From contig JAPOWB010000008.1 in NCBI GenBank assembly GCA_026707815.1, forward strand, positions 126,230 to 160,455: DNA of 34,226 nt, given 5' to 3'. Of the stretch, positions 16,625 to 32,766 are shown in pieces (the stretch's first letter is position 1; the number at the start of each line of letters is the position of its first letter). The position numbers and the translations under genes are program-made. Source of the DNA: Candidatus Saccharimonadota bacterium. GTDB lineage: Bacteria; Patescibacteriota; Saccharimonadia; Saccharimonadales; VXPC01. The notes beneath the pieces are model-generated. The model was not told the DNA's origin, ran no database searches, and saw only the letters and a program-made list of their open reading frames with translations.

Positions 16625-17215
16625 ATGAAAAAGTTGTTTAAGAGCAAGGATGAAGATCAGCAAGGTTTTAGCGTCGTTAAGATTATTATCTTAACTGTTG
16701 TTGTTGGGCTAATCTTGATTATCTTATTTACTGTTTTTGTGTTTATTGTTATACCGCAACTGCAAAGAAACAGCAGAAACACTGATCGTCAAACTGATAT
16801 TGGTGCTATCAGAAGTGGGCTATGGTCTTATGCAGCCGATCAAGAAGGCACAATACCCGATGACACGACCAAACTCAATACTGTCTTGAGTGTTGTGGAT
16901 AGAATTTTTTACACTGATGCCTCTAGTTCAGCCTTAACCAATACAGCTCAAACTGCATTCAAAATCTATATAGAAAAAAGAAGTGCCGTGGTAACAACTG
17001 ATGTTTTGCCTGACGCTGATTCTGTGCATATCATTGTTGGAGCTGAATGCACAACTAGAGGATTAACCTCAACAGATGGGAATAGAATGTATAATGATGC
17101 TGAAACATATGACGATTTTGCTGGGATTCTGACAAAAACCGCCAGTGACAAAGCATATGTAATGCTATATCTATTAGAGGGCAACAAGCAAAAGTTAACT
17201 TGCGAAAATAGTTAA
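16625..17215 (+). CDS. Type IV pilin-like protein
   Basis: Short basic leader then QQGFSVVKIIILTVVVGLILIILFTVFVFIVIPQLQ (prepilin-like cleavage G|F plus hydrophobic helix), then RQTDIGAIRSGLWSYAADQEGTIP. Confidence 0.7.
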   Translation: MKKLFKSKDEDQQGFSVVKIIILTVVVGLILIILFTVFVFIVIPQLQRNSRNTDRQTDIGAIRSGLWSYAADQEGTIPDDTTKLNTVLSVVDRIFYTDASSSALTNTAQTAFKIYIEKRSAVVTTDVLPDADSVHIIVGAECTTRGLTSTDGNRMYNDAETYDDFAGILTKTASDKAYVMLYLLEGNKQKLTCENS

Positions 17216-21718: not shown

Positions 21719-24700
21719 ATGCTTAAAACTCAGAAACTGCAATCAATTAAAAGATACCATCTGAATCTGAAAAGTGCTTTATTGATTATTGCAACAATCT
21801 TCGGCAATATTTTTTTTATAGCTATCTTCTATCTGAACTTCAATAATATTGTTCATGCTAGTAATTGGTGGGACGGTGTTGCATCTGGAAGTAATTGTAT
21901 ATTGCCAAACCCTGAAAAATGTCCTTTAATGCTATCTGATCATGTGCGTGACGAAATAAGCTCATCAATCCCGGCAATCCCGGAAAGAAGTCATTTAGAT
22001 AATGTAAAATACGACTATACTGCTGTTCATCACCCTATACAAATTTTCGAAATTACCCATGTTACAAGCTCACCGGCTACATTTAAGATATATTGCAGGA
22101 ATATAACAACAGAGTTAAACATCGACCACTTAGTGGATGATGGTGAAGCAACCCCCTTGTCAGGTGGAAGATACCAACCCAGCCGAGGCGGCTGGAAGGA
22201 GAAAAATATACGGCTTAATATATACGATTCTGAAGACGTCCTTAAATTTGAAAAACTCAATGCATGCCCAAGTTCACCTAAGCATATGGAAAAGGGGTGG
22301 GGTGGGTGGCTAAATACCAATGGGTCATGGGAGGTAGAACAAGGGTATCATATATCACTCGAATATTCTGACAAAAATGGATTATCATACTTTCATTACA
22401 CCGTTGAATGTGAAGACTGTGAAGCCACTATAGATACAAAAAGGAAGCTATATAATGATCCTTCCATTGCTTCTCATCCAGATCCTCAATATCCTGGTCG
22501 TCCAGAAGGGACTGAAGGAGACGCAGTTTTTGGCAGAACTGTATTAGGATGGTATGACAGCTCAGATAGTGAATATCAATTTAAGTGTAGATTAGAAAAT
22601 AGGCATGTTGACCAAGTTTACCTTTTTGATGATGATTCTGGATACAAATCCGCAATTCATAAATATGGGACGGGCAGTATAGAAATTACTGCAAGTGACA
22701 GCAATAACAAAACGAGTACGTTTCTGCAGACGTTTGAGTGGCCCGGTGGCTTGAACAATACTGGCCTATATACAATATATCAAAACCATCGATATATACC
22801 TCTTACAGACGTTCAAGAGTGGCTAAAAAAAGCCGATACTAGTCCTCCATATACATTGCAATTTACAATTCCACGGAGAAATTATGCATCTTGTAGTGTT
22901 ATATACAATGATCCAAAGCCCTTAATAGGAGCGATAAATATGACGCTAGGTCCAGAAAGTGATGGCGCATACAAGTGCCTCATATATTTTACTCATCTGA
23001 AGTTTGTGGATACTAATTTAACTCCCCCCAATCCTGAGCTAAGACTGACTATCAAGAAATGGGGTAATAACAATGGTGTATTATTGCAATCCGTTGCAAA
23101 TCCTCTGCCGGCAACTGGTGATCCTCTGACTAACGCCAGTCCCAGCCAATTGTTAAATCCTCCGCCTCCGGCCGTCAATGCAGCCAGCCATAAAGATCAT
23201 TTCATTGTTGATATCACTAATTCTCCGAAACATCTCAGAGCTTTAAGAGATAAGCTTAAAGCTTATGAATTTGAGATAAGGCATGTAGACACTGAAAACA
23301 ATATAAACAAGGTAATTGCCGAAACACTGCCTTGGCATAGTGATAATGGCAATATTAACAAAATCAAAAATCAGATTGATAAATGTTTGGAAAAATATAG
23401 AAAACTAACAGTAAGTATAACTGCCGATTGTGTTATATATGTATCTGAGTTGATGTGGACATCCTCCAATCCAAATAATAAGCATCCAAAATTAACCATT
23501 AAAGGCAAAAACACATCTGAACCATATAAGTTTCCGGTTGGCGGTACTAATAAGAAAGTATTCTACCAGCGATTAGAAGATGGTGGGGAATCTGTACAAT
23601 ATTGGTATTCTAATCCACTGCCGAAAGCTCTAAGCTTAACCTCAGCTGATTTAGAAAAACCAGAACATGATGGTCGACTTATTATAGATCTTAAAAAAGC
23701 TCCAAGCATTCTAAGAGGTATCCAAAATAATACATACACACTGACAGATTTTGTCTTTTGGGTTAGAGGTTATGAAAGAACCCCCAATTCAGACAGAACT
23801 ATCTGGTTTACTAGCACATCTGAAAATTATTCCCATTCTAAAAAAGATATTTTCGAAAGCACTTGGGAGCTACCACCAGGTCAAACCCTAAAAGATGTTG
23901 CTCTAAGATGTGCTGGCGATGTAGATGTGACTGGCGAAATTAGAATGACTAATAATTGTTATCTGTATATGCACTCTTTGAAATGGGAGGCTCAACCGAA
24001 TGCCAAACTCCAAGTAGTTTTGGCGTACAATGAAAGCCAAGCTAAACAAATTCAAGATCAGGCTAAGATAAATAATCACATTAAAACTTATTCTATTCAA
24101 AAGCTTAGACCAAGTACTACAGGCATTATTGAATCCTCGGCCAACCTTTTAAATAATGGTCTGCACAAACAAGTTGATGCCCCTGCTCAAGGTTTTAATG
24201 TCGACGACATAACTGTCACTAATCCAGTTGATCGATTTATGATTGACTTATATGAAGTAACTTCCATCAAGGATTCTAGTGGCTCTTTAATTAGTCAGCC
24301 GGGTCATAGCAGTCAAAATATTTATCAGAAATTAAAGCAATTAAAAGCCTTTGTCATTGGACATAAAGATAGTAGTGACAACTTCCATTTCTGGGATGGT
24401 GATACTAATACTCCGACCATTAGCGAGATCCCAATTCAACAAGTTCCCGATCAATACTGTGGACTAAGAGCTGAAGTTTACGCTGATGACTTATGTCATA
24501 TTTATATTAATATTCTTAATTTGCCATCCAACCAAACAAGCAGCTCTGTAGAGATTAACCCCTTTGTAAAAGATTCACCTAATACAAGATATACAAATCC
24601 AAAGATAGAACAGGTCGATTCCACATTTGACCTAGGATTTGGGATGATCTTGGATGCTTTTGGCGCACCTCTGACAGATGCTTTGACATTACGAGATGTA

Positions 24701-27700
24701 GACTATAGAACATTGGTCACTATCAACTCGTCTACTGGAAATATAACTACGCCCATGACTATCGATTATAAAAATGGCTATGCTACGTATAGACAGCGTA
24801 TTGAGAATTGGCCTAAAAACACCGACAAGCCAGACCAACCTGTTTGCGATAAGGAGCCTGGTGAGTGTAGTCCAAGTGCTGGAGAGACTTTTAAATTCAA
24901 GTTGGAGCCGGGTTCCTCACATCCTGTATCCTCAGCATCAGAAGCTTATAATCATTCCTATAATATTCAAGGAGCTTCTCGGAATGTCGTTCGTTCAGCT
25001 GGGCATCATTCATGTTCTGCTGGGACTTATCCATGCGGGACTGAAGAAAATCCACGAACTTGCACTAGATGGCGGTCTTGTGGTGCATCTCATTCTTTTT
25101 CCTATCTAACAGCAACCCCTGGCTCACCGGGGCATGCCCAAATACTATGGAGTCAAATGAGAGCCTTAACTCAAGCTGACATAGATAATATGATGGAGGC
25201 TATCAATTTAAATAACCATGATGTAGACACATATACAATTTTGACTCAAGATAATGTCGGCAGTTCAACAACTAACCAAGTACCGGTTGGTATTAATATT
25301 CAATTTACAGCTCCAGACCAAATAATAAGTAGCCCAGGTAATCAGCCGGACGTTACATTATCGGGTTTTCAATCATCTTCTAGAGTAAACTTTGAAAGAA
25401 CTATTTATGATTTAAAAATATACTTTTCTCTATACGAACTCAAAGAGCCAATAACTAGTTCTAGACGAATAAAATTCAATGAATCACAAAGATTTCGTAT
25501 AGTCAATGGAGGCAGTGAATCACAAATTTGGAGCTACGATAATGATGGTGAGAATGCCAGTGGTGATGAGATTAGACTTTATGGCTGGGGGGCACTAGAA
25601 GATCTGGCAGCTTCAGGTGGGACTTGGGATTTAACAATTAGCCAAAGAATTTCCTACAGTTGGGAAACTTGGGCGCCTAATCCGGGGCATGCCGGAGATT
25701 TTTCTAGCTGGCGGACTCGGACTGCTCCAAAAAGTCACCCCGGTGGAACATTGGAAGCTAGGGGGACTTGGGGAGCTTGCAGTAGAACACTTATAGTTCA
25801 AGTACCAGATTGCAATACTTGGGATATGCGTGACCCTCCAGTAACTAGCAGACACTTCAGTGCTAATACAGAAAATTCAGCTTCCGGGCGTAGATCTCAC
25901 GAAGTCTTTGATGTTGGTGAACAGGAACCGAGATCAAAACTAGAATATATCAATCGCAATAGACACTTCCATATTCTGGGTCTACCTAAATACAGTGTTA
26001 TAAGAGATGATCCTTATAAGAATATTGGGGGCAACAGCACTGGTGCTGCCCGCCAAATACCCACAGGTCAAATAGATGCCACTCAGAAACAAATCCAAAA
26101 AAGTGACAGAGATTTTATAAAGGAAAAACCGACCACCATTAATTACCCAGGTTCTTATCAGGTAACTTGGATACCGACTTGGAGATCTGATGCTCGAAGA
26201 TCTCCTTGGACTGGCGATAATCTAGGTCCATGGAAGGGTAAAGAAATAGAACAGACCAGTTGTTTTAATAACAATCCTACTCTAACTAGCCCTAAACTAG
26301 AAAAACCGACTTATGTCTGGGCAGATCCGCCTAATTGTGAGGTGACTCTTTGGAAAATTTATGAACTCGGTGCCGGTGGAGGCAATACTTTAGGAGTAAC
26401 ACTCAAAAACCCCAATAAAGCTCCAATGCGCATAGATAAAGTTGAACTCTTAGTTACACCTAAAGTCGGGGCAAGTAGATTCACATCTAATAATTCTGAA
26501 GAAGTCATAGGATCAAATCAAGCTGAAGGACAAATAATCCCCGCTAACAGTTCAGTCAATATTGAATTTACCTCTGCTGGTCAAGCTCGTTTGGGGCGAC
26601 ATTTCGCTCACCCCAGTCAACTCGGTCAACATTATTATGAATGGAAAGTTCAAACCAGTATGGGAGTTGAAACTTGGTCGACCAAATACCGAGATGTAGC
26701 TGGTAATAATAATGGCCTCAATCATAGGTCTTGGTTTGAAAAGACTGGCCAAGCCCCAGGAACAGCCACTTCTAATACAGAAAGAATTATTACTGAAGAA
26801 TCTAATGATACTCCACCAATTGAACCTGCATTTTCCAACCACTGTGTCGGTATTTACCGACCGGTGATTAGACCTTACGTCAAAGTTTTTTACAGCTCCT
26901 TAATCATTGGCGGGCGTTTTAACCCTTCTGAGGGTCGTAATTGCCCCAACCTAGACTTCAGCCAAGTCAAAGGTTATATCTTAGGTCATACTAATCCCAA
27001 CCCCATTGAAGACATAGATGGCGATGGGAATACTCATGGAGATATTACTGGATCATCGACAGAATACAGCTTACAAGTGACTAATCAAATTGATGGTTTC
27101 TATTCAGCCTCCCAAAGACAATCTAAATTCGATCCCTCACCTAAAGCTCCTTCTGGATTGACCTTGGGTAATACTAATCCCACCTTAAAATATGGCGGAC
27201 ATTATGGTAAGCAAGAAACCTGCATTGCCAATTATTGGCGAAAAGTCGACAAAGTTCCATCTCTACGTAGTAATTGGTTGCTTGGCGATACCTTATACCT
27301 ATCTGATCAAAGAAGTCGTCTCCATACCTATGATGTTGGCGGCGGAAAATACAAATATAACGGCGACTTGATCATCCGAAACAATTCCGCCAGTAGTCTG
27401 AATCTCAAAACTACCCTCTATGTCAATGGCGATGTTTGGATTAAGGACAATATCTACAATAACAATGACAATCTGCCTTGGACGCACCCGGTTCAGATTG
27501 GCTACATCTTCATTATCGCCAAAGGTAATATATATATCGATCCATCCGTTACAAATATTGACGCCATCTTAGTCGCCTACCCAGAATCTCATAACGATGA
27601 TGACACTGGTCGAATCTGGACTTGTGATCCAGAGGGCTTAGGTCGGGATAATCACTATTATGCCTGTAATAAGAAGCTGGTTGTTAACGGAGCTTTAATT

Positions 27701-27982
27701 GCTCAAAATCTCCACTTAGGACGATTTGCCGGAGTCACTGGCAATGATGTTGGTACCACCCAAGCCGTTGACTGCTTGGAAGTTTCAAGCCACTTTAGAC
27801 GCCCAACTGGAGATTCAACGAAATACTGTGGTTTTGGCTCTGAGGGGGATACGCCCAACAATATGGCTGGAGAAGAAATTAACTTACTGCCTGAATATTA
27901 TATTGGTTTACCATCTCTGCCACCTTGGGATGAATGGATGTACGAACGAGATAGTTTTGCTATTAAAGCTCTCAATTGGTAA
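21719..27982 (+). CDS. Giant (2087 aa) secreted/surface protein with diverged Cys-containing repeats and a C-terminal polymer/beta-helix-like domain
   Basis: Uninterrupted ORF; N-terminal hydrophobic signal/anchor (ALLIIATIFGNIFFIAIFYLNFNNIVHAS); four C-x-[ILV]-Y-x(3)-L motifs; DxDGDG loop at 27011; C-terminal IFIIAKGNIYIDPSVTNIDAILVA...KLVVNGALIAQNLHLGR region. Confidence 0.85.
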   Translation: MLKTQKLQSIKRYHLNLKSALLIIATIFGNIFFIAIFYLNFNNIVHASNWWDGVASGSNCILPNPEKCPLMLSDHVRDEISSSIPAIPERSHLDNVKYDYTAVHHPIQIFEITHVTSSPATFKIYCRNITTELNIDHLVDDGEATPLSGGRYQPSRGGWKEKNIRLNIYDSEDVLKFEKLNACPSSPKHMEKGWGGWLNTNGSWEVEQGYHISLEYSDKNGLSYFHYTVECEDCEATIDTKRKLYNDPSIASHPDPQYPGRPEGTEGDAVFGRTVLGWYDSSDSEYQFKCRLENRHVDQVYLFDDDSGYKSAIHKYGTGSIEITASDSNNKTSTFLQTFEWPGGLNNTGLYTIYQNHRYIPLTDVQEWLKKADTSPPYTLQFTIPRRNYASCSVIYNDPKPLIGAINMTLGPESDGAYKCLIYFTHLKFVDTNLTPPNPELRLTIKKWGNNNGVLLQSVANPLPATGDPLTNASPSQLLNPPPPAVNAASHKDHFIVDITNSPKHLRALRDKLKAYEFEIRHVDTENNINKVIAETLPWHSDNGNINKIKNQIDKCLEKYRKLTVSITADCVIYVSELMWTSSNPNNKHPKLTIKGKNTSEPYKFPVGGTNKKVFYQRLEDGGESVQYWYSNPLPKALSLTSADLEKPEHDGRLIIDLKKAPSILRGIQNNTYTLTDFVFWVRGYERTPNSDRTIWFTSTSENYSHSKKDIFESTWELPPGQTLKDVALRCAGDVDVTGEIRMTNNCYLYMHSLKWEAQPNAKLQVVLAYNESQAKQIQDQAKINNHIKTYSIQKLRPSTTGIIESSANLLNNGLHKQVDAPAQGFNVDDITVTNPVDRFMIDLYEVTSIKDSSGSLISQPGHSSQNIYQKLKQLKAFVIGHKDSSDNFHFWDGDTNTPTISEIPIQQVPDQYCGLRAEVYADDLCHIYINILNLPSNQTSSSVEINPFVKDSPNTRYTNPKIEQVDSTFDLGFGMILDAFGAPLTDALTLRDVDYRTLVTINSSTGNITTPMTIDYKNGYATYRQRIENWPKNTDKPDQPVCDKEPGECSPSAGETFKFKLEPGSSHPVSSASEAYNHSYNIQGASRNVVRSAGHHSCSAGTYPCGTEENPRTCTRWRSCGASHSFSYLTATPGSPGHAQILWSQMRALTQADIDNMMEAINLNNHDVDTYTILTQDNVGSSTTNQVPVGINIQFTAPDQIISSPGNQPDVTLSGFQSSSRVNFERTIYDLKIYFSLYELKEPITSSRRIKFNESQRFRIVNGGSESQIWSYDNDGENASGDEIRLYGWGALEDLAASGGTWDLTISQRISYSWETWAPNPGHAGDFSSWRTRTAPKSHPGGTLEARGTWGACSRTLIVQVPDCNTWDMRDPPVTSRHFSANTENSASGRRSHEVFDVGEQEPRSKLEYINRNRHFHILGLPKYSVIRDDPYKNIGGNSTGAARQIPTGQIDATQKQIQKSDRDFIKEKPTTINYPGSYQVTWIPTWRSDARRSPWTGDNLGPWKGKEIEQTSCFNNNPTLTSPKLEKPTYVWADPPNCEVTLWKIYELGAGGGNTLGVTLKNPNKAPMRIDKVELLVTPKVGASRFTSNNSEEVIGSNQAEGQIIPANSSVNIEFTSAGQARLGRHFAHPSQLGQHYYEWKVQTSMGVETWSTKYRDVAGNNNGLNHRSWFEKTGQAPGTATSNTERIITEESNDTPPIEPAFSNHCVGIYRPVIRPYVKVFYSSLIIGGRFNPSEGRNCPNLDFSQVKGYILGHTNPNPIEDIDGDGNTHGDITGSSTEYSLQVTNQIDGFYSASQRQSKFDPSPKAPSGLTLGNTNPTLKYGGHYGKQETCIANYWRKVDKVPSLRSNWLLGDTLYLSDQRSRLHTYDVGGGKYKYNGDLIIRNNSASSLNLKTTLYVNGDVWIKDNIYNNNDNLPWTHPVQIGYIFIIAKGNIYIDPSVTNIDAILVAYPESHNDDDTGRIWTCDPEGLGRDNHYYACNKKLVVNGALIAQNLHLGRFAGVTGNDVGTTQAVDCLEVSSHFRRPTGDSTKYCGFGSEGDTPNNMAGEEINLLPEYYIGLPSLPPWDEWMYERDSFAIKALNW

Positions 27983-27990
27983 AGAAAGCC

Positions 27991-28947
27991 ATGCTTTTCC
28001 GTCAAGCAATTGTTGATTACCTTGAATATTTAGAGATAGAGAAAAATCTCTCTCAAAAAACCATTGCCAATTATGATGCTTATTTAAAAAGATTGCTTGA
28101 TTTTGCTGGCGATGATTTAAAACTGGAAGATATCGACTTAGAGCTAATCAGACAATGGAGATTATGGCTGAATCGCTTGGGTGGTCTTAAACAAGCCCAG
28201 CTATCTAAGATAACTCAAAATTATCATCTAATTGCTCTGAGGAATCTCTTAAAATATGCCTCTAAGAGAAATTTGCAGGTCTTAAACTATGGTCAAATTG
28301 AACTAGCCAATGTCAAACGTCAAGCCGTTAGCTTCTTGACATTGGAAGAAATAGATAGGTTGATGGAAGTTTGTTCTTCTAATAATCTGAATTCTTTAAG
28401 AAATCGAGCTATTTTAGAATTGCTCTTCAGTAGTGGTCTGAGAGTTTCTGAGCTGACTAATTTAAATAAGGATCACATTAATCTAAAAAACAGAGAATTC
28501 GTCGTTAGAGGTAAAGGCCAGAAAGATCGTCTAGTCTTCATCACTGATGAAGCGGCTGATCATTTACAGAAATACTTAAATCAAAGAACTGATAACGCTT
28601 CTGCTCTTTTTATTAATACTTCAGCTAATAAACAGAAAGATGTTCAACAAGATGGCAATTACTTAAGATTAACCCCCAGAAGCATTCAGAGAATAATCCA
28701 AAAATTAGCTCTGCAAGCCGGCATCACCAAGAAAGTTACTCCCCATACCTTAAGACACAGCTTTGCTACCAATTTATTAAGTAATGGGGCAGATTTGAGA
28801 AGCATCCAAGTCATGTTGGGGCATGCCAATATTGCCACAACTCAAATATATACCCATACGACAGATTTACAATTGAAAAATATTCATCAGCATTATCACT
28901 CTAAAAATAAAGCTCAGAAAGAAAGATTAAAGCAACCATCTCAATAA
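27991..28947 (+). CDS. xerC: Tyrosine recombinase XerC/XerD-like (likely start at 27991; ORF track starts at TTG 27976)
   Basis: N-terminal SAM-like domain, catalytic motifs SGLRVSEL, GKGQKDRLV, TPHTLRHSFATNLLSNGADLRSIQVMLGHANIATTQIYTH. Confidence 0.92.
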   Translation: MLFRQAIVDYLEYLEIEKNLSQKTIANYDAYLKRLLDFAGDDLKLEDIDLELIRQWRLWLNRLGGLKQAQLSKITQNYHLIALRNLLKYASKRNLQVLNYGQIELANVKRQAVSFLTLEEIDRLMEVCSSNNLNSLRNRAILELLFSSGLRVSELTNLNKDHINLKNREFVVRGKGQKDRLVFITDEAADHLQKYLNQRTDNASALFINTSANKQKDVQQDGNYLRLTPRSIQRIIQKLALQAGITKKVTPHTLRHSFATNLLSNGADLRSIQVMLGHANIATTQIYTHTTDLQLKNIHQHYHSKNKAQKERLKQPSQ

Positions 28948-30715: not shown

Positions 30716-31708
30716 TTGGATATGCGTTCATTAAAATCTCCGCAAATGATATCAGGCAAATCATTTGAATACGCTTTACTAATACAATTCTATGGAAAAC
30801 TCAAGCAAACCACTACGGTTAAAATTATCAAAAACTCATCTTTTAGGATTGCTAAAGAATGCTTTGGCTTTCTTTCAACCGATAGACGGAGTGATTATTT
30901 GTTGACAGCAAGTTTTGCTGTTAATTTCTTTATAGATATTGAGCCTCGGTTAAACAATCATCTAAATAACAGCGATTGTTTGCAACTAGAAATAGCCCAA
31001 GACTCCAGAGGTGAATTGGGGGATGCAAGAGATATTCTAATTATTAGATCTCTGCAAGATTGGGAAATAGGTATCTCTGTTAAAAATAATCACAGAGCCA
31101 TTAAACATTCACGTTTATCATATAGCATTGATTTTGGACAAAAATGGCTAGGTATAAATGTTTCTCAGCAATATTTAAATGATATTAAGCCCATTTTTCA
31201 GCAATTAGAAGAGATTAAAAGATTAACCAATAATACCAGAAAATGGAAAGAACTAGATAATCACCATTCGTCAATATACAAGCCTTTACTAGTAGCCTTT
31301 CGGTCTGAATTAGGTAGACTCCATGATGTAAATTCCTTGAAAGTATCACAGAATCTAATAAAATACTTAATTGGTAAAAAAGACTTTTATAAAGTTATTA
31401 AATTAAAAAATCAAATTGAAATCCAAGCCTATAATTTCAATCAAACTCTAAATTTATCCTTCAAAAATCAGAACCCTCTATACATAATTCCTGCGATCAA
31501 ATTGCCAACCAAAATTTTAGATATTAGATTTAAGCCTAATAGTCAAACAACAGTGACAGTAAAATTGAATTATGGCTGGGAACTATCTTTTAGAATTCAT
31601 AATGCTAGTTCAAAGGTTGAACCATCTTTAAAATTTGATATTCAACTTCTGAAATCTCCTAAAAAATTATTCAAAAATCATTTAAATATTGTTGGGAATA
31701 AAGACTGA
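30716..31708 (+). CDS. Type II restriction endonuclease, HaeIII-like (predicted GGCC)
   Basis: GELGDARDILIIRSLQDWEIGISVKNNHRAIKHSRLSYSIDFGQKWLGI resembles R.HaeIII; partner C5 methyltransferase starts at its stop codon. Confidence 0.85.
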   Translation: MDMRSLKSPQMISGKSFEYALLIQFYGKLKQTTTVKIIKNSSFRIAKECFGFLSTDRRSDYLLTASFAVNFFIDIEPRLNNHLNNSDCLQLEIAQDSRGELGDARDILIIRSLQDWEIGISVKNNHRAIKHSRLSYSIDFGQKWLGINVSQQYLNDIKPIFQQLEEIKRLTNNTRKWKELDNHHSSIYKPLLVAFRSELGRLHDVNSLKVSQNLIKYLIGKKDFYKVIKLKNQIEIQAYNFNQTLNLSFKNQNPLYIIPAIKLPTKILDIRFKPNSQTTVTVKLNYGWELSFRIHNASSKVEPSLKFDIQLLKSPKKLFKNHLNIVGNKD

Positions 31709-32766
31709 TGAAAATAGTATCCTTATTTACTGGTTGTGGAGGACTGGACTTAGGCTTTAAACAAGCTGGATTTGACATCATTTGGGCAAACGAATTTGAT
31801 AAAACAATTTGGGATACCATCAGAATTAATTTTCCTACAGTCAACTTAGATACTAGGAGCATTACTGACATTAAATCTAGTCAAATTCCTTCTGCTGAAG
31901 GTCTTATAGGCGGTCCGCCTTGTCAAAGTTGGTCTGAAGCTGGAAGTCGGAGGGGTATCAATGATAATAGAGGTAAATTATTCTATGAATATATAAGAAT
32001 ATTAAAAGCTAAACAGCCTAAATTCTTCATCGCTGAAAATGTGGCAGGAATATTGCATAAAAGACATGCATCGGCTTTGGGTAATATTATCACTAAATTT
32101 TCTGATGCCGGCTATCAATTATCAATCAAGCTTCTCAATGCCTCCGATTTTAATGTCCCCCAAGATCGTCTGCGGGTATTTATAGTTGGTTATCATCGAA
32201 GTTTAAATAGACGATTTCAATTTCCAAAACCTAGTAAATATAAAACAAATATGAAAGAGGCAATTTGGGATCTTAGAAAGATTAAACCAACTAAGATTTT
32301 AAATACGACTGTCATAAATGAAGATTTACAAACTCAAAACCATCATTATCTAGATAGCACTTTTTCCTCTAGATACATGTCTAGAAATAGAGTCAGGCAA
32401 TGGCATGAGCCATCTTTTACCATTCAAGCCAATGGTCGACACATACCTCTCCACCCTCAGGCTCCTAAAATGAAATTAGCATCTGCTAATCAACGAATGT
32501 TTGACGAACAACAATTAAAAAAATATCGGCGATTATCAGTTAGAGAATGTGCTAGAATTCAAACCTTTCCCGATGATTTTATCTTGCAATACAATAAAAT
32601 CAACAATGGCTATAAAATGATTGGCAATGCTGTACCTGTAAATTTGTCTCAATGCTTAGCTCAACAAATTTTAATTGATTTGACAGATAGTGATATTTCC
32701 TCTAGGGATACAGAAGAAAGTCAATTAGAGCTGTTTGATGTTCAAATGCAAAAGATGGTCAAATAA
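31708..32766 (+). CDS. DNA (cytosine-5) methyltransferase, M.HaeIII-like
   Basis: SLFTGCGGLDLGFKQAGF, GGPPCQSWSEAG (catalytic PCQ), FIAENVAGI, NVPQDRLRVFIVGY, QRRLSVRE-like ...YRRLSVRECARIQTFPDDF, MIGNAVPV. Confidence 0.96.
   Translation: MKIVSLFTGCGGLDLGFKQAGFDIIWANEFDKTIWDTIRINFPTVNLDTRSITDIKSSQIPSAEGLIGGPPCQSWSEAGSRRGINDNRGKLFYEYIRILKAKQPKFFIAENVAGILHKRHASALGNIITKFSDAGYQLSIKLLNASDFNVPQDRLRVFIVGYHRSLNRRFQFPKPSKYKTNMKEAIWDLRKIKPTKILNTTVINEDLQTQNHHYLDSTFSSRYMSRNRVRQWHEPSFTIQANGRHIPLHPQAPKMKLASANQRMFDEQQLKKYRRLSVRECARIQTFPDDFILQYNKINNGYKMIGNAVPVNLSQCLAQQILIDLTDSDISSRDTEESQLELFDVQMQKMVK

Follow-up and report, generated by a model that had tools for sequence, protein, structure and literature searches.

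Bacterial adhesins use tandem beta-domains, such as those of the Ig-like (Big) and FN3 types, as stalks built from secreted, repeated domains. The host-binding structures known from Saccharibacteria are type IV pili, and one of their minor pilins, PilX2, contributes to host binding in Nanosynbacter lyticus TM7x (PMC12206443). PilX1 and PilX2 of this strain are surface proteins that have additional beta domains at the C-terminus and no predicted pilin-type signal (PMC12206443), in which they may resemble a giant protein encoded in the 34,226 nt window analysed here (the whole stretch of DNA, to which all nucleotide positions refer unless a contig is named). They differ from it in being minor pilins encoded in type IV pilus loci, and the comparison with the giant protein is by description only. 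Like the adhesins, the giant protein is probably secreted and has repeated domains which may serve as a stalk, but it has no Pfam match to Ig-like/Big or FN3 domains and carries Cys-pair units.

A giant protein with a signal-peptide-like start

The giant gene (21719..27982, + strand) is an ORF of 2087 aa in a genome of 692 kb on nine contigs, and the C-terminal part of its product is conserved in relatives. The protein starts with a hydrophobic stretch ending in VHA|S, which was read from the sequence as a Sec signal peptide (21719..21859, +) with likely cleavage after VHA (aa 47). Since most family proteins have a signal-peptide-like start at the same position, with an A-x-A-type end, the stretch most likely serves as a Sec signal peptide that is cleaved off, and not as a membrane anchor. 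The whole protein matched no Pfam family at E ≤ 1 and its three parts matched none at E ≤ 10, with no HMM match to known Pfam repeat ectodomains (Ig-like, FN3, cadherin and others), and no family was matched in NCBIfam or PHROGs.

Within the window, the end of the giant gene is overlapped by a few bases by a gene for a tyrosine recombinase of the XerC/XerD type (27976–28947). Other genes encode a HaeIII-type restriction enzyme directly followed by a DNA cytosine methyltransferase (30716–32766), and a small protein whose start resembles that of a prepilin (QQGFSVVKIIILTVVVG, 16625–17215). No synteny of neighbouring genes was found between the giant gene and family members in other genomes.

The sole same-family relative in our sample was a giant ORF in the MAG of Candidatus Saccharibacteria bacterium SB0662_bin_47 (VXPC01000014.1, L032/L089); the family is represented by two genomes only, this one and the source genome. 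As SB0662_bin_47 is also the nearest relative with a name, the source is placed in the Saccharibacteria. The two proteins are of the same length (2090 codons in the relative) and collinear, with 32% identity over aa 1156–2086, where the Cys residues are largely kept; no significant BLAST alignment was obtained between their N-terminal halves. The family-conserved middle region (aa 1156–1712, 25184..26854, +) contains Cys pairs 1354/1365 and 1515/1540, both kept in the relative, and is followed by the C-terminal domain (26855..27979, +). Six Cys of the C-terminal part line up with Cys of the relative also when Cys was masked before alignment. This C-terminal domain is order-wide, with matches in 44/61 genomes, and its core extends more widely in the phylum (84/333 genomes, reaching other classes); it is unnamed in Pfam, and within the order the last residues of most members are exactly LPP-[VILA]-[YLF]. 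Three other genomes (L036, L057 and L066) have two family proteins whose genes lie in tandem, near each other and on one strand.

A diverged copy of a class-wide domain

Residues 284–396 of the giant protein (22568..22906, +) were assigned, by HMM and conserved Cys spacing, to an ectodomain that is class-wide in Saccharibacteria ('C...FDAD...NGIQ...C', hereafter FDAD/NGIQ domain), of which they are a diverged copy. This domain is ~120 aa in length, has the consensus C...[hydrophobic]-W-F-D-A-D...Y-x-W-x-W-x-N-V-x3-N-G-I-Q-x3-P...C, and is often located near the N-terminus of those proteins of the order that share the C-terminal domain of the giant protein. Within the order, 50 of 393 genomes encode it, and in a sample of the phylum it was limited to 7/333 genomes, all belonging to the same order and class. 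No PDB relative was found by sequence, and the domain has no name in Pfam or NCBIfam. The secreted proteins which carry it resemble the giant protein in their signal peptide, in the location of the domain and, in many cases, in having the same C-terminal domain, but they have a single copy of the domain, lack the Cys-pair units and are mostly 580–1670 aa long.

An HMM of the FDAD/NGIQ domain, built without any protein of the giant protein's family, had its best place in the giant protein at aa 285–359, starting near Cys290 (22586..22588, +) and aligning VYLFDDDSG to the FDAD strand. This score was above those of all 400 shuffles; the E-value of 0.006 is weak in absolute terms. The end of the domain, up to Cys392 (22892..22894, +), lies beyond the HMM match and was placed by the conserved Cys spacing, as the two end Cys were present in 28 of 31 domains at a median distance of 109 residues, with 102 for Cys290 and Cys392. 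From the HMM place together with the spacing, Cys392 probably closes this domain by pairing with Cys290. The first-pass annotation had taken Cys392 as the upstream Cys of a first repeat unit, and it does lie 27 residues before the first motif copy described below, but as it matches the closing Cys of the class-wide domain, Cys392 and Cys420 are probably not a pair. Cys420 is the odd Cys left over once 290 and 392 pair, and the relative, which differs in having a large insertion in its class-wide domain, shows the same trio (337, 696 and 709).

Four copies of a Cys-bearing motif

The regular expression C.[ILV]Y...L.[WFL] has exactly four matches in the 2087 aa ORF, as reported in the first-pass annotation. 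These are CLIYFTHLKF (copy 1, aa 420–429, 22976..23005), CVIYVSELMW (copy 2, aa 571, 23429..23458), CYLYMHSLKW (copy 3, aa 747, 23957..23986) and CHIYINILNL (copy 4, aa 926, 24494..24523), all on the + strand and spaced by 151, 176 and 179 residues. The further Cys that had been noted upstream of each copy is indeed there (Cys392, 556, 731 and 914, with 27, 14, 15 and 11 residues between), as are the openings HFIVDIT, RLIIDLKKAP and RFMIDLYEV of units 2–4. Composition alone would give 0.002 matches per protein, for a pattern that was drawn up post hoc; since it was chosen after looking, a pattern-free search for the best quartet is the fairer test. Among ungapped 10-mers the motif quartet was the top four-member set, with a sum-of-pairs score of 138, while the best quartets of shuffled proteins scored 122.8 ± 8.5 and reached 138 in 4 of 60 cases, so that the ten-residue motif alone is not decisive.

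Inspection by eye located a second strand-like stretch after each motif strand (PELRLTIKKW, HPKLTIKGK, AKLQVVLAY and SSVEINPFV), which is compatible with a hairpin. The pattern C-x-[ILV]-[YW]-x3-[LV] with a Cys 12–28 residues before it was found four times in the giant protein and twice in the relative. A GWAYD-type module of related proteins was considered as the origin of the motif and rejected, with a score of 8.3 against 6.7 ± 1.4 in controls (maximum 12.0).

Extent of the units and their Cys pairs

Three units were delimited on the + strand around motif copies 2 to 4: unit 2 (aa 488–601, Cys556/Cys571, 23180..23521, with its HFIVDIT opening at 23198..23218), unit 3 (aa 647–775, Cys731/Cys747, 23657..24043) and unit 4 (aa 835–955, Cys914/Cys926, 24221..24583). 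A possible degenerate fifth unit (aa 968–1061, 24620..24901, +) was seen by eye in the Cys maps of both proteins, where CDKEPGEC resembles CEDAPPGEC of the relative. The 110 residues upstream of the motif had a similarity of 1.62 among the four copies, versus 0.57 in controls, of which 6/100 reached 1.62, and the 45 residues immediately upstream of the motif showed no similarity among copies. Over the whole stretch including the motif, units 2/3 had a z of 5.5 and units 2/4 a z of 3.8, and for the upstream part only the values were 2.3 and 4.6, respectively; this upstream resemblance is confined to units 2–4, and is unclear for unit 1 and for the copies of the relative. Leave-one-out HMMs of the units did not recover the missing unit. 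Judged on these comparisons, a duplicated unit of 150–180 aa would be a less secure claim than the motif itself. The earlier reading of four tandem diverged units keeps its motif copies, which are real, and the upstream likeness of units 2–4, but unit 1 is composite and an equivalence of all four is not supported. AlphaFold predictions for aa 264–1074 as single sequence (pLDDT 32.5) and for unit 2 with five related units (pLDDT 40.2) had too low a confidence to compare the positions of the motif strands or to judge a common fold.

The region of aa 421–1042 has only six Cys, and each of units 2–4 contains two of them as a close pair; with Cys placed at random, 0.33% of trials (0.0033) yielded three pairs within 20 residues. 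Disulfide bonding of these pairs is plausible, because the same genome encodes a DsbA-like thioredoxin with a CPAC sequence, and the relative has one beside its giant gene. The DsbA-like gene of the relative (L032, 11830–13236, − strand) immediately precedes the giant gene and has the same orientation. A VKOR partner for the DsbA-like protein was looked for and none was found, which counts against the explanation that we prefer.

Copies in the relative and distribution

The giant protein of SB0662_bin_47 has two motif places, CEIYIKQLLF (709) and CAVWIEDVSM (922), versus four in the source genome, and its Cys pairs are 696/709, 902/922 and 1072/1080. The first and third best of the weak BLAST alignments between both N-terminal halves are in register on these motif places. 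A profile of units 2–4 had its best place in the relative at 690–720, with a score of 22.2 that was reached by none of 60 shuffled-column controls (14.4 ± 2.5, maximum 21.5), and it also found motif copy 1, scoring 16.9 on the unit 1 region (controls 11.4 ± 2.1, maximum 16.5). The correspondence between the copies of the two proteins is ambiguous.

The first-pass annotation had suggested searching CPR proteomes with an HMM of the units. The motif is present in the family relative, and a profile of all units gave nothing convincing in the 391 other genomes of the order (393 in all). Whole-protein searches of genome contigs and searches of genome and viral contigs with the C-terminal alignment returned no unit-bearing relative besides SB0662_bin_47. 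In one genome (G482), a frame with 25,343 codons and no stop was discarded as an N-run artefact. The unit profile had no convincing relative in the PDB, where a match to PNGF-II (E 0.06) was taken as chance. The proposal of an undescribed extracellular domain family agrees with the Cys-paired repeat, the lack of a match in Pfam, NCBIfam and PHROGs, the signal-peptide-like start and the copies in the relative, but four equal units were somewhat of an overstatement. What is partly supported is a new extracellular repeat, restricted to the family, probably paired by disulfides and of an ordinary kind.

Proposed architecture and alternative explanations

The reading that we prefer, with middling confidence, is that of a Sec-secreted, modular surface or host-contact protein in which a variable number of small Cys-paired beta-hairpin units make up a stalk. 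The signal peptide would be followed, in this order, by an N-terminal domain, a single diverged class-wide domain closed end to end by a disulfide (aa 284–396), the Cys-paired units (motif copies 1–4 and perhaps the degenerate fifth), the middle region and the C-terminal domain. The second Cys of each unit would open an edge strand (C-x-[ILV]-Y-h-x-x-L-x-[WFL]), after which come a turn and another strand. In units 2–4 this Cys is probably bonded to the Cys located 12–16 residues upstream, thus locking the beta-hairpin against pulling and proteases. As the unit number differs between the two relatives (four versus two), the run of units is a probable spacer or stalk of adjustable length, which would present the conserved C-terminal domain. 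Alternatively, the units may themselves bind the host cell, which is a guess based on the lifestyle of Saccharibacteria.

It is unlikely that only the ten-residue Cys strand recurs, through convergence or composition as in edge strands of unrelated beta domains, with no duplicated units at all. The equally good quartets in shuffled proteins, the lack of similarity directly upstream of the motif and the failure of the leave-one-out HMMs are what such a situation would give, but it leaves aside the regular spacing of the motif, the presence of exactly one Cys pair in each of units 2–4, the similarity of these units further upstream and the recovery of a place in the relative by their profile. 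More doubtful is a descent of the units from the FDAD/NGIQ ectodomain, as diverged tandem copies in which a local Cys pair took the place of the end-to-end disulfide. The FDAD/NGIQ HMM has its second place in the giant protein at aa 514–529 (KAYEFEIRHVDTENNI), in the hairpin of unit 2, and hhalign of units 2–4 against the class-wide profile chose the same hairpin, but these matches are non-significant (i-E 0.56; hhalign 12.1 versus 9.7 ± 2.2 in controls) and units 2–4 lack the conserved first Cys of that domain. We consider it highly improbable that the Cys pairs are metal-binding or redox-active rather than structural disulfides; their occurrence as close pairs would fit such a function, but spacings of 12–16 are unlike C-x2-C type sites, no further Cys are nearby, and the protein is predicted to be secreted in an organism with a DsbA-like enzyme.

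Significance for Saccharibacteria

A bolder and clearly speculative reading, less probable than any duplication or convergence scenario above, is that this lineage turned a single-copy class-wide surface domain into a tandem array, with a short local disulfide instead of the end-to-end one and varying copy number, and so obtained a fast-evolving stalk of adjustable length for host-bacterium contact. Apart from type IV pili, the means by which Saccharibacteria attach to their hosts are largely an open question. The unnamed secreted family, with its order-wide C-terminal domain and a two-Cys domain found in many genomes, would provide candidates for host contact, and the Cys-pair array may represent a lineage-specific elaboration of that family.
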